From Halorhabdus utahensis DSM 12940 (GTDB taxonomy: Archaea > Halobacteriota > Halobacteria > Halobacteriales > Haloarculaceae), in contig NC_013158.1 in NCBI RefSeq assembly GCF_000023945.1, forward strand, positions 558,001 through 622,000: a stretch of 64,000 nt of DNA, read 5' to 3'. Numbering within the stretch: the stretch's first letter is position 1; each line of letters opens with the position of its first letter. Shown in pieces: positions 58,093-62,731 of the stretch. The notes under the pieces were generated by a model. That model had not been told where the DNA came from. It was given only the letters and a program-made list of their open reading frames with translations, and searched no databases. Both the position numbers and the translations under genes were made by a program.

Positions 58093-59007
58093 TCACGGCA
58101 CGATGGCGATCCAGGCCGACAGTGTAAACGCCGAGGCGACAGTCGAGAGAAAGACGAGGATCGACGCCAGCCGACGGTCGCCACCCATCTCGGTGACGTA
58201 GACGAACGTCGAGACGGCCGCGGGAGCGCCGAACATCACGACAGCGGTCCGGAGCGTCCAGAGGTCGGCACCCAGGGCGGCGTAGACCACCCAGGCGACC
58301 ACCGGCATCACGAGGAGTTTCATCGCGAGTACTGGCCCGACGATCGAGCGATCGGCTTCCATGGACTGGAGCTGGATGGAGCCCCCGACACAGAGCAACG
58401 CGACCGGCAGCGCCGCCTCGGCGACCAGCGCGATCACGTCGGCCGGGATGCCGGTCACCGTCGCCGGCGAGCGCGAGACCGCAAGCCCGATGACGAGCGC
58501 GACGAGGACGGGGTTGGTGGCCAGTCTCCGGACTTCGCTACGGAAATTCCGGCTGTTGCCAGTCACCGCGACCAGGATCGAGACGGTCAGCGGGATCTGG
58601 ACGAGCGCGCCCATCCCGAGGATGACGCTGCCGATCCCGGCCGCGCGTTCACCGAGCGCACTCGCGACCACCGGGAGGCCGATATAGCCCAGGTTCGTGT
58701 GATATGACTGGACCGTCGCGGCGGCCCGCGCCCCGTCGTCGTCGATCCGGCGGTGGACGAGCCACCCGACGCCGGCGGTTATTCCCAGGACGCCGACCAG
58801 CCCAACCAGCAGCGTCGGCGTGACGATCTCAGACAGCGGTTTGTCGTACGTCGAGTTGAACACGAGTGCCGGCAACACCACGTAGAAGGCGACACTGTTG
58901 AGCCACTCGACCCGCGTCGCGTCGAGGACGCCGACCCGCCGGAGCCCGACCCCCACGGTGAGCAAACCGATCATCACGGCCAGCCGCGTCAACACGTCCA
59001 TCGGCAC
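58093..59007 (-). CDS. AEC (auxin efflux carrier) family transporter
   Basis: This 304-residue membrane protein has ten TM helices in two five-helix halves. Family features are LNSVAFYVVLPALVFNSTYD and YHTNLGYIGLPVVASALGE (the mid-protein NxGxxGLP motif) and the C-terminal AVMFGAPAAVSTFVYVTEMGG. AEC proteins export organic anions such as malate; the substrate is unknown here. A second ATG two codons later could be the start. It lies 97 nt downstream of the UbiX gene, same strand. Confidence 0.87.
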   Translation of the reverse strand: MPMDVLTRLAVMIGLLTVGVGLRRVGVLDATRVEWLNSVAFYVVLPALVFNSTYDKPLSEIVTPTLLVGLVGVLGITAGVGWLVHRRIDDDGARAAATVQSYHTNLGYIGLPVVASALGERAAGIGSVILGMGALVQIPLTVSILVAVTGNSRNFRSEVRRLATNPVLVALVIGLAVSRSPATVTGIPADVIALVAEAALPVALLCVGGSIQLQSMEADRSIVGPVLAMKLLVMPVVAWVVYAALGADLWTLRTAVVMFGAPAAVSTFVYVTEMGGDRRLASILVFLSTVASAFTLSAWIAIVP

Positions 59008-59104: not shown

Positions 59105-59677
59105 TCACGACGAGTTCCACTCGTCGTAGCGGTCGTGATCGAGGTCGAAGCGTTCGAGGATCTTCCCGACGACGTGATCGACGAAGTCCCCGGGTTCCTC
59201 GGGATCGAAATAAAAGCCGAGCATCGGCGGCACAACGTCGACGCCCAACTCGGCGAGTTTGGTCAGGTTCTCCAGATGTAGTTGACTCAACGGCGTCTCC
59301 CGGGGAACGACCACCAGCCGGCGGCGTTCCTTGAGACAAACATCGGCCGCCCGCGCGACGAGGTCATCCGACCGGCCGGTCGCCACGTCGGAGACGGTCG
59401 CCATCGACGCCGGGACGATCACCATGCCGTCGGCGTCGACCGACCCCGAAGCGATCGGCGCGTGGATGTCGCTCTCGCCGTACATCGCCGCTGACGCGTC
59501 CCGAAGCCGATCCATCGTCTCCTCGCGGGAGCCGGATTCGTGGGTCATCACCGATTCAGCAGCGTCGGTGACGACCGTGACCACCTCGGCGTGTTCGGCG
59601 AGCGCTTCGACCGTTCGAACGGCGATCGGAATGCCCGACGCGCCGGTGATCCCGACGATGACTCGCTCCATGCTCAC
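59105..59677 (-). CDS. ubiX: UbiX-type flavin prenyltransferase
   Basis: This 190-residue flavoprotein makes prenylated FMN, the cofactor of UbiD decarboxylases. The FMN site starts VIVGITGASGIPIAVRTVEA, the conserved catalytic Ser/Glu/Arg region is VIVPASMATVSDVATGRSDD, and the ending KERRRLVVVPRETPLSQLHL is characteristic. It overlaps the stop of the aconitase-X small subunit gene by 4 nt and is last in an operon that starts with a UbiD enzyme, so it supplies the cofactor for that partner. Confidence 0.94.
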   Translation of the reverse strand: MSMERVIVGITGASGIPIAVRTVEALAEHAEVVTVVTDAAESVMTHESGSREETMDRLRDASAAMYGESDIHAPIASGSVDADGMVIVPASMATVSDVATGRSDDLVARAADVCLKERRRLVVVPRETPLSQLHLENLTKLAELGVDVVPPMLGFYFDPEEPGDFVDHVVGKILERFDLDHDRYDEWNSS

Positions 59678-60102
59678 ACCCGCCTGATGGTGCCCGCGTC
59701 GGCGTCGACCGCGACGCGTTCCCCGTCTTCGAGCGTTTCCAGGTCCGCGTCGGGCGAGTCCAGGCAGGGAATCTCCCCGAGGATCGCCCCCGTGGCCACG
59801 ATCGTCTCGGTCTCCTCGTTGACGATCGCGGCGGGTGCACAGTCGTTGTTCGCCAGCCCGTAGAGGACATACGAGCCCACCGTCGACCCTTTCCCCCGCG
59901 GGAAGACCAGGACTTTGCCCGCAATGTTCTCGCCCTCCAGGGGATGACCGTCCTCAATGAACTCGCCGGTGTCCGGCTCGACTGCGCCGTAGAAGCTGAT
60001 CGGCACGTCGGAACGGAGGACTTCGCCGCGGCCCTGCCCCTCGGTGATCGGCTCGGCGTCGATCGCTCCTTCGGCCGCCGAGTCGCTCGATTCAGAACTC
60101 AT
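59674..60102 (-). CDS. Aconitase X small subunit (DUF126), probable phosphomevalonate dehydratase small subunit
   Basis: This 142-residue swivel-domain protein (DUF126) matches the small half of aconitase X. The signature is GKVLVFPRGKGSTVGSYVLY then ANNDCAPAAIVNEETE, with the conserved Ser that in aconitases contacts the substrate. An acidic N-terminal tail of about 25 residues precedes it. The ATG at 60102 overlaps the large subunit's stop by one base (TGATG). In archaea the two-subunit enzyme dehydrates mevalonate 5-phosphate; this role is inferred from the operon with UbiD and UbiX. Confidence 0.88.
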   Translation of the reverse strand: MSSESSDSAAEGAIDAEPITEGQGRGEVLRSDVPISFYGAVEPDTGEFIEDGHPLEGENIAGKVLVFPRGKGSTVGSYVLYGLANNDCAPAAIVNEETETIVATGAILGEIPCLDSPDADLETLEDGERVAVDADAGTIRRV

Positions 60103-61280
60103 CACTCTGTCACCTCCGCAAGGAGCGCCTCCTTGTCGTTGAACGCCACGTCCTGGTTGCAAAAGCCGGGGAGATACGTCGCGGCCTTCGCCGAGTCGGT
60201 CGCGCTGGACTCATAACCCAGCTCTTCGATTGGCGAGACGACGTTGCAGGTGTCCGCAAGGACTTTGCCGCCGGCTGCCTCGATCGTTTCAGTCAGCCCG
60301 TTCCGGTCGGCCCAGGTCTTGACCGACGCGCTCGTACAGACCCACAGATCGCTGGAGAGCGTCTTGCCCTCGACGGTCGCGGCCACGTCCTGGATCTCCT
60401 CGGGTGAGCAATGCGGACACCCGATGACCACGAGTTCGGGATCGTCGGCGGTCGTGAGTTCCTCGTATTCGGCCTGTAACTCGCCCTCGCCGAAGGTCGC
60501 CGTCTCGACGTTCTCGGGCGGCTCCATCTCGGTCGTGACACCCTCGACGAAGTGGAGCGCGACCGCGCCCGTGGCGGCCATCGCCGCCCCGAGGGCCTTC
60601 AGGTCGTCCGTCCCGCCCGAATTGATCCCCGTGAAGTAGGGCTTGCCGTCCTCGACGAGGCGCCCCGTCCAGGAGCCCAGCGCCGCGAAGTCGGCCTGGC
60701 TCTCGATGTTGGCCTCGACGTCGATCCGGAACGTCGGCTGGCGGTTTTCTTCCAGGTGGAGGCCGTATCTCGGCGTCCGACCCGTGATCGCCGCCGCCAG
60801 CGCGGAGGGGCCGCCCTCCCGATTGGTCTTCGCCCCAACCACGCTGTTGACGAAGGAGACGGCCGAGGATTCGGCCCAGGCGACGTGCTGGCCACGCCGC
60901 GGGAGATTGCCCGCGAGGTAGGGTGTACAGGTAAACGAGAGGACGATCCCCATCTCCTTGAGTGCATCCCGGATGCGTTTCTGTTTCTCGGCGAACGCCT
61001 CGTCGATGCCGAGTTCCTCCCAGCGCTCGAAGTCCATCCCGGCCGGGTTGGCGAACGTGGGAACCGACGCTTCCGCGCCTTCCTCCGCAAATCCCTCCAG
61101 GAACTCGACGCCGGGATCGCCGATCGACTTATAGGAAATGCCGGAGGCCTGGGCCGATTCGATCTCGATCATCTCCTCGGCCCCGTAGATATCGCCGAGC
61201 TTCACGAGCAGTTCCATCGCCTTCCGGACAGCGTCGTTGTCCGATTCGAGCAAGTCTTCCTCGTGTTGTGTCAGGTGCAT
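60102..61280 (-). CDS. Aconitase X catalytic subunit (DUF521), probable phosphomevalonate dehydratase large subunit
   Basis: This 392-residue AcnX large subunit has cysteines for an iron-sulfur cluster in SFTCTPYLAGNLP (about residue 113), IGCPHCSPEEI (about 287) and LADTCNVVSPI (about 353). The family's WAESSAVSFVNSVVGAKTNR and GPSALAAAITGRTPRYGLHL segments are intact. Aconitase X members act on cis-3-hydroxyproline or, in archaea, mevalonate 5-phosphate. The separate small subunit and the UbiD/UbiX neighbours point to the latter. It starts 16 nt after the UbiD stop. Confidence 0.9.
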   Translation of the reverse strand: MHLTQHEEDLLESDNDAVRKAMELLVKLGDIYGAEEMIEIESAQASGISYKSIGDPGVEFLEGFAEEGAEASVPTFANPAGMDFERWEELGIDEAFAEKQKRIRDALKEMGIVLSFTCTPYLAGNLPRRGQHVAWAESSAVSFVNSVVGAKTNREGGPSALAAAITGRTPRYGLHLEENRQPTFRIDVEANIESQADFAALGSWTGRLVEDGKPYFTGINSGGTDDLKALGAAMAATGAVALHFVEGVTTEMEPPENVETATFGEGELQAEYEELTTADDPELVVIGCPHCSPEEIQDVAATVEGKTLSSDLWVCTSASVKTWADRNGLTETIEAAGGKVLADTCNVVSPIEELGYESSATDSAKAATYLPGFCNQDVAFNDKEALLAEVTE

Positions 61281-61296
61281 GTGTCTCTCCGTTGGG

Positions 61297-62598
61297 TCAC
61301 TGATAGTCCGCGAGATCTATCTCGTCGGCACCGGGAACGGTCACTTCCGCGAAGTCGGCCCGGTCCCGGTCGCCGGGCACGGTCGCGTCGACGATCCACT
61401 TCGCGAGCGTCCCCCGGTCGTAGTCCTGGGAGGGGTCCAGCGACGAGCCCTTGGCGTTCTCGATGACGGTGATGTCCTCGTCGGGTTGCATCCGCGTGGC
61501 GGTGGCCCACTCGACCGCGGTGGGATCGGCGGGGTCGATGTCGCTGTCGACGACGGTGACCTTCTTCATCGAAGGGTGGCCCGCCAGCGCGGCCATCCCG
61601 GCGTTTTTGGGGTCGCCTTCCGAGCGCTTCTCGAGCTGGACGACGCCGTGGAGCCACGAGCACCCGCCCGGCGTCAACACGACGTTCTCGACCGTCGGGA
61701 CGGTGTTCTCGACGATCCGGTAGATCCGGGGCTCCTGGGGGATGCCCATGAGGTTGGCGTGTTCGGTGCGACCGGGGACGATGATCCGCGCGTAGGGATC
61801 GGGTCGCATGTAGAGGTCATCGACCTCGACGACGGGTTGCTGGCGCGTCCGATCCCACGTCCGCGAGAGGTCGACGAAAGGGCCTTCCTCGCTCCGCTCG
61901 TCGGTGATCGTCGCCCGCATGACGATCTCGGCGTCGGCCGGAACCTGGATTCCGTCGGCGTCGGCGGTCGCAAGCTCGCCATCCAGCAAGCGATTCGCCA
62001 GCGCGAGTTCGCTCTTCTCCGGCGCAAACGACGTGGCAGTCGCCAACTCGACTGCCGGATGGACGCCCATCACGATCGCCACGTCCAGCCCACCTTCCGT
62101 CCGGGAATACATATCGTGGAGGTGGCGTTCGACCAGCCGCATCACGAGTCGATTGCCTTCGTCGAACATCATCCGGTGGAACGAGCAGTTGGTGACGCCA
62201 GTTTCTGGATCCTCGGCGATCACGACCGAAGACGCGAAGTACTGGCGTTCGTGCTCGTCATAGAAGATCGGGATCGGGACGTGCTCGTCGATGGTCGGCT
62301 CGCTCGCGACGTGCTCGAAGGACGGGTCAGCCGTCTCTTCGACGGGCAGCGGCTCGTTCATCGCCGACCCCATCGCATCGACGATCGAGGCGGCCTCGAC
62401 GCCGAGCGCCCACCCGATCATCTCCCGGGAGCCGAGCGTGTTGGCCACCGCGCGAACGTCAGGATACCCCTCGACATCCTCGAAGACAGTCGGCTGTGTC
62501 TCCTTCTGGACGGCCAGGGCCGGGAGTTCGAATCGGGGATCGACTGGATCGGTGAGTGTCGTCTGTGCTTCCTCCCGCAGAAAGTCTCGTAACCCCAT
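61297..62598 (-). CDS. UbiD-family decarboxylase, probable anhydromevalonate phosphate decarboxylase
   Basis: This 433-residue UbiD enzyme uses prenylated FMN. Visible are the flavin/metal region ETGVTNCSFHRMMF with the catalytic-type Arg, and ERSEEGPFVDLSRTW with the conserved Glu pair. HPAVELATATSFAPEKSELA and the C-terminal IDPADPTAVEWATATRMQPD complete the family pattern. It is first in the operon UbiD - AcnX large - AcnX small - UbiX, which fits decarboxylation of trans-anhydromevalonate 5-phosphate to isopentenyl phosphate. A GTG start 18 nt upstream is possible; the ATG at 62598 (MGLRDFL) is preferred. Its upstream region is shared with the divergent alaX gene. Confidence 0.9.
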   Translation of the reverse strand: MGLRDFLREEAQTTLTDPVDPRFELPALAVQKETQPTVFEDVEGYPDVRAVANTLGSREMIGWALGVEAASIVDAMGSAMNEPLPVEETADPSFEHVASEPTIDEHVPIPIFYDEHERQYFASSVVIAEDPETGVTNCSFHRMMFDEGNRLVMRLVERHLHDMYSRTEGGLDVAIVMGVHPAVELATATSFAPEKSELALANRLLDGELATADADGIQVPADAEIVMRATITDERSEEGPFVDLSRTWDRTRQQPVVEVDDLYMRPDPYARIIVPGRTEHANLMGIPQEPRIYRIVENTVPTVENVVLTPGGCSWLHGVVQLEKRSEGDPKNAGMAALAGHPSMKKVTVVDSDIDPADPTAVEWATATRMQPDEDITVIENAKGSSLDPSQDYDRGTLAKWIVDATVPGDRDRADFAEVTVPGADEIDLADYQ

Positions 62599-62731
62599 CG
62601 TTGGCGGTGATTGCACGCCATCCTATTCATGTTCCGGGGCGCACTCCCGGAACGTGAGAATGCGTCTCGTCAGGCAGATGGCCGTCGAAATCTCGGGAAC
62701 ATTTGTGGGGCTGGATCGTGAACCAGCCCAT

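Follow-up and report, generated by a model that had tools for sequence, protein, structure and literature searches.

A predicted archaeal-type lower mevalonate branch beside the phosphomevalonate decarboxylase route in Halorhabdus utahensis

Why would a haloarchaeon carry genes for a second way to make isopentenyl phosphate? Halobacteria have been treated as users of the phosphomevalonate decarboxylase (PMD) route only (PMC10040528, PMC9385802), haloarchaea have been listed as a group that departs from the archaea-type route (PMC11052028), and PMD is thought to have displaced the dehydratase/decarboxylase pair of that route (PMC9254496). We analyzed a 64,000-nucleotide window of the Halorhabdus utahensis DSM 12940 genome (NC_013158.1, positions 558,001 to 622,000), in which a four-gene operon at window positions 59105-62598 encodes a UbiD-family decarboxylase, the large and small subunits of an aconitase X (AcnX), and the flavin prenyltransferase UbiX. 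We consider it probable that this operon is a working archaeal-type lower mevalonate branch standing beside the haloarchaea-type branch, with a preference for low-oxygen, low-energy conditions being the less certain part.

In the proposed scheme, the two AcnX subunits would act as a [4Fe-4S] phosphomevalonate dehydratase (PMDh), forming trans-anhydromevalonate 5-phosphate from (R)-mevalonate 5-phosphate. UbiD, using prenylated flavin mononucleotide (FMN) supplied by UbiX, would then decarboxylate this intermediate to isopentenyl phosphate, which isopentenyl phosphate kinase (IPK) would convert to isopentenyl diphosphate. PMD would make an equal net conversion in parallel, in a single ATP-consuming step, and for this reason the two routes are expected to share substrate and product.

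Identity of the operon enzymes

All four genes lie on the minus strand in the order UbiD, AcnX-L, AcnX-S, UbiX and are tightly packed, with 16 nt between UbiD and AcnX-L, a 1-nt overlap between the AcnX subunits, and 2 nt between AcnX-S and UbiX. UbiD (61297-62598) has 433 residues when read from the ATG at 62598, with the frame also open from a GTG at 62616. In a Pfam and NCBIfam profile search it scored 305 bits against TIGR00148 (cut-off 245). AcnX-L, the proposed catalytic PMDh-L (60102-61280, 392 residues), matched PF04412 with 494 bits, and AcnX-S, the swivel subunit PMDh-S (59674-60102, 142 residues), matched AcnX_swivel PF01989 with 113 bits. UbiX (59105-59671) has 188 residues from its ATG, with a GTG start possible at 59677. 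It exceeded the cut-offs of both TIGR00421 (189 bits, cut-off 109) and NF004685 (205 bits), and its matches in the PDB are flavin prenyltransferases. The product of UbiX is the prenylated-FMN cofactor used by UbiD. An earlier note on this DNA had described a complete four-gene operon here, and the gene calls and family scores confirm it.

The solved structure closest to AcnX-L is the PMDh of Thermococcus kodakarensis (TkPMDh, 7CNR), at 345 bits, whereas type I hydroxyproline dehydratases reach approximately 190 bits, and chain B of 7CNR is the first PDB match for AcnX-S. With a further profile model the large subunit scored 254 bits and the small subunit 85 bits, as two chains, and the subunits are separate products of neighboring genes in 18 of 18 haloarchaeal carriers. 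TkPMDh served in these comparisons in place of the characterized Aeropyrum enzymes. The residues of TkAcnX that bind the cluster and mevalonate 5-phosphate have been reported (structure 7CNS; PMC8184944), and our ligand-residue comparison rests on this solved Thermococcus structure. Cysteines C118, C288, and C345 of AcnX-L align with the cluster ligands C110, C283, and C342 of TkPMDh and are invariant in the 18 haloarchaeal and 35 other archaeal AcnX sequences, in agreement with the earlier note, which had listed the iron–sulfur cysteines as present. Residues G48, S50, N79, E129, S130, K361, and Y365 (Tk numbering) are invariant in the same 53 sequences. S131 is invariant across the 18 haloarchaeal copies, V49, a main-chain contact, is isoleucine in them, and the small-subunit KGSTV motif does not vary in haloarchaea. 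The type I row in this alignment, 7D2R, is an engineered S449C/C510V mutant whose cysteines are not those of the wild type. In trees, the haloarchaeal copies form one clade with TkPMDh and with f33, a lineage of the same phylum, among archaeal AcnX and apart from type I, with long outgroup branches that leave the root unsure. These features fit a type IIb phosphomevalonate dehydratase, as predicted from sequence, rather than a hydroxyproline dehydratase.

The UbiD protein is placed as sister to AcnX-linked UbiDs of other archaea in two trees that did not include the characterized anhydromevalonate-phosphate decarboxylase (AMPD) itself (clade support 100/92 and 100/97), and it stands apart from the UbiDs of about 500 residues found in other haloarchaea. 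It did not reach the cut-offs of the aromatic-acid and menaquinone UbiD families in the profile search (VdcC, 206 of 650 bits; TIGR03701, 95 of 496; PRK10922, 80 of 788). The earlier note had claimed that the UbiD Arg/Glu residues were all present; the acidic motif is indeed there, except that its last acidic residue is Asp rather than Glu. It reads EGPFVD, as in AcnX-linked archaeal AMPDs, and the nearest solved UbiD, 6H6X, has EGPFGE. Among the columns conserved in AcnX-linked UbiDs, 70 of 94 are kept in all 18 haloarchaeal copies. The evidence fits a predicted AMPD and not an aromatic-acid enzyme. Clustering with hydroxyproline dehydratases and aromatic-acid decarboxylases had been named beforehand as what would speak against a mevalonate role, and for both proteins the outcome was the opposite.

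Two routes in one genome and their distribution

The genes of the haloarchaea-type route are present in the same genome. An intact PMD gene lies at genome positions 681833-682825, approximately 60 kb outside the window (NF040704, 587 bits; cut-off 475), and the genes for mevalonate kinase (MVK) and IPK lie next to each other at about 2.065 Mb, the IPK scoring 185 bits against NF040647 (cut-off 120). Because PMD, MVK, and IPK are all found beside the operon, two routes to isopentenyl phosphate coexist in one organism, as the earlier note had raised conditionally. Together with the placement of AcnX and UbiD, this supports its reading of the locus as a putative anhydromevalonate-phosphate branch parallel to PMD and IPK.

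The ratio of nonsynonymous to synonymous substitution rates (dN/dS) was obtained by a simple Nei–Gojobori count for H. utahensis against three other Halorhabdus genomes. UbiD, AcnX-L, and AcnX-S gave 0.04-0.14, UbiX gave 0.17-0.18, and PMD gave 0.14-0.17. These low values show that both routes are maintained by selection. A decayed or relic operon was rejected, since the genes have no internal stops and dN/dS lies between 0.04 and 0.18. Neither is the arrangement a chance one, because it is kept in 18 genomes and the compared genes are under purifying selection.

We surveyed 394 Halobacteria genomes from 86 genera. AcnX scored above its cut-off in 19 of them, and 18 carry the full operon of UbiD, AcnX-L, AcnX-S, and UbiX together, always with the operon-type UbiD. 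The carriers belong to six genera in three families: all seven Halorhabdus genomes, four of the five genomes of genus g7, and one or two genomes each of g2, g17, g53, and g82. PMD was above cut-off in 393 of the 394, the exception being a genome that is 87% complete. Loss of PMD in carriers was considered and rejected; the TAA codons flagged in two of them (G319 and G362) reflect a match that overran the normal stop, and the frames are intact. Outside the class, nearly all sampled Halobacteriota genomes have AcnX and many have an AcnX-linked UbiD, and a strong match to the PMD protein was found in only one (G446) of the non-halobacterial genomes tested.

Four carriers from two genera (G349, G093, G007, and G001) have PMD directly after UbiX on the same strand. 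This operon copy is the only PMD found in G093 and G349, and G007 and G001 also carry a second, more distant PMD-like gene. Since PMD uses mevalonate 5-phosphate, its presence in the operon ties AcnX and UbiD to that compound, and we regard it as the strongest contextual evidence for their substrate.

Several side observations came out of the survey. The second PMD-like gene (L201 1048-2466, plus strand, and L202 1480-2451, minus strand, in G001 and G007) is about 57% identical to H. utahensis PMD and scores 393 bits, below the NF040704 cut-off of 475. In G093, the operon that includes PMD is closely followed, on its downstream side, by a gene for a TnpB-family RNA-guided endonuclease (L087 11169-12389, plus strand). 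The nineteenth genome with AcnX above cut-off, G273, from another haloarchaeal family, has a lone, diverged two-subunit AcnX that is 35% identical (L095 7208-8494 and 6762-7211, minus strand). Its neighbors encode a DctM-type transporter and an FAD oxidoreductase, with no UbiD or UbiX gene nearby, and it probably acts on a different substrate.

Oxygen, redundancy, and other substrates

Given their iron–sulfur and prenylated-FMN cofactors, both enzymes of this route are expected to be sensitive to oxygen. The dehydratase/decarboxylase route also needs less ATP than the PMD route (PMC10040528, PMC11052028). Because one ATP would be saved and the cofactors are expected to be sensitive to oxygen, the two-enzyme route may be preferred when oxygen and energy are both low, with PMD serving oxic conditions, although this step is less certain than the rest of the scheme. 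An oxygen-sensitive, ATP-saving parallel route is our favored explanation of the operon, and it is unproven.

The lifestyles of the carriers are suggestive of an association between the operon and anaerobic life. H. utahensis is primarily aerobic and can grow anaerobically by fermenting glucose (PMC3035240). Carriers with a species assignment are strict or facultative anaerobes; G001 is tentatively Halodesulfurarchaeum formicicum HTSR1, an anaerobe, and G362 is tentatively Halalkaliarchaeum desulfuricum AArc-Sl, from a facultatively anaerobic sulfur-respiring group. Heme-copper oxidase was missing from 3 of 58 tested genomes, 40 of which were picked by hand, and all three (G001, G007, and G093) carry the operon. 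The anaerobic ribonucleotide reductase NrdD was tried as a general marker of anaerobiosis and rejected as too rare and confined to one genus; it occurs in 6 of the 394 Halobacteria, all Halorhabdus, with the H. utahensis copy at 1577076-1578800 of the chromosome (G000:C1), minus strand.

Several observations weigh against a working branch regulated in this way. The oxidase-free carriers retain PMD, which they would not need if oxygen alone decided between the routes. There are few independent carrier lineages, and several of the species assignments are tentative. The facts themselves are at the level of genes (both routes intact, binding residues kept, purifying selection), with catalysis read from the sequences. 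N53, a phosphate contact in TkPMDh, is serine in all haloarchaeal AcnX and threonine in 30 of 35 other archaea. Finally, 17 conserved UbiD columns are changed relative to other AcnX-linked UbiDs (LSRTWD for ITGTYD, for example), and three of these adjoin the catalytic motif.

The next most probable explanation is that oxygen plays no part: the two routes are simply redundant, or the operon boosts flux or primes the prenyl donor of UbiX. Switching by oxygen suits Halorhabdus but not the oxidase-free genomes, where PMD is kept within the very same operon; redundancy or donor priming therefore retains real weight, and the similar purifying selection on both routes counts in its favor. On the other hand, the carriers with species assignments are strict or facultative anaerobes, and the class, which is largely aerobic, mostly lacks the operon; both points speak against redundancy. 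We judge this explanation possible but on the improbable side.

It is unlikely that the operon enzymes act on some other mevalonate-like substrate, leaving PMD as the sole source of isopentenyl phosphate. Every carrier has PMD, so the operon is in principle dispensable for isoprenoid synthesis, and the altered UbiD columns, some of them beside the catalytic motif, also speak for this reading. However, nearly all contacts to mevalonate 5-phosphate are kept in AcnX, and an enzyme of mevalonate 5-phosphate is part of the operon in four genomes. Several of the same UbiD changes are also shared by the lineage f33, where AcnX is present and PMD gave no match in an assembly that is 84% complete.

A catabolic or secondary operon built from a hydroxyproline-type AcnX and an aromatic-acid UbiD can be dismissed on scores, residues, and trees as extremely improbable: the corresponding profile match falls far under its 700-bit cut-off, the AcnX subunits are separate rather than fused, the nearest structure and the ligand residues are those of a type II enzyme, and both proteins are placed with archaeal pathway enzymes.

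Returning to the parallel-route explanation, its fullest version holds that a sporadic set of haloarchaea capable of anaerobiosis has two alternative mevalonate branches picked by oxygen or energy state, the archaeal-type one being a distinct PMDh/AMPD lineage that was perhaps gained laterally. We put this version forward tentatively, at somewhat short of even probability.

Origin, flanking features, and relation to known pathways

Haloarchaeal AcnX forms one clade (100/100) with f33 as its sister (100/96). A 100/99 branch separates the haloarchaeal sequences, f33, and TkPMDh from 40 other Halobacteriota sequences, including those of f12, in a tree whose root is unsettled because only one sequence comes from a different phylum. 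The UbiD tree gives weak agreement, with f33 again as the sister group (91/55). Since haloarchaeal AcnX groups with f33 and TkPMDh, apart from other Halobacteriota, plain vertical descent from the ancestor of the phylum is not supported under this unsettled root, and it is plausible that haloarchaea gained the archaeal-type branch laterally. Within haloarchaea, family f1 is a clade in the PMD tree and is not one in the operon tree, yet its monophyly is not rejected there (approximately unbiased test, p = 0.099). These trees are compatible with either vertical loss or lateral spread of the operon within the class.

UbiX is 79-98% identical to the H. utahensis copy in Halorhabdus and genus g7, and 57-59% identical elsewhere (L078, L081, L086-L088, L092, and L094), a steeper fall than for AcnX-L. 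It may have been exchanged, or may evolve faster, outside Halorhabdus and g7.

Alignment of the upstream region and the window sequence point to a candidate TATA-like promoter element, CATGAATAGG (62622-62631, minus strand), which is the same in seven Halorhabdus species and precedes the UbiD ATG by approximately 28 nt. It may act as promoter for a leaderless transcript. At the other end, approximately 100 nt past UbiX, is a gene for an AEC-type membrane transporter (58093-59007, minus strand). It was rejected as an operon member because, among carriers, it was seen only beside Halorhabdus operons.

The four enzyme families are those of the Aeropyrum pernix archaeal pathway (PMDh, AMPD, the UbiD partner UbiX, and IPK). 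As in pathways of that type, whose genes are adjacent in many archaea, AcnX has type IIb residues and UbiD has the EGPFVD motif. Unlike in those pathways, the genes here occur in Halobacteria alongside an intact PMD, in a PMDh/AMPD clade of their own with Ser at the phosphate contact and the 17 changed UbiD columns. H. utahensis shares MVK, PMD, and IPK with the haloarchaea-type pathway of Haloferax volcanii, a species where the survey detected no AcnX, and differs from it by the extra two-enzyme route to isopentenyl phosphate, joined with PMD in one operon in four genomes. Type I hydroxyproline AcnX and the operon AcnX fall in one subfamily, AcnX, within the aconitase superfamily; the type I enzyme differs in being a single chain with other cluster ligands.

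Genomes that hold two kinds of mevalonate branch have been described before, among metagenome-assembled genomes of Asgard Hodarchaeales in which a single contig bears both phosphomevalonate kinase/diphosphomevalonate decarboxylase (PMK/DMD) and AMPD/AcnX (PMC11052028). Those genomes are from uncultured organisms and combine archaeal and eukaryote types, whereas the combination here occurs in cultured organisms and is of archaeal and haloarchaea types, which share substrate and product. We found no report of the dehydratase/decarboxylase route in haloarchaea in the literature searched, which did not cover the founding 2018 A. pernix paper, and a prior mention is possible. Each of the enzymes is of a known kind; the finding lies in their occurrence in Halobacteria alongside PMD. 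With both routes present in cultured organisms, sometimes in one operon, the proposed replacement of the dehydratase/decarboxylase pair by PMD becomes directly testable. The carriers also offer a salt-tolerant PMDh and AMPD, as predicted here, for isoprenoid production at low ATP cost.

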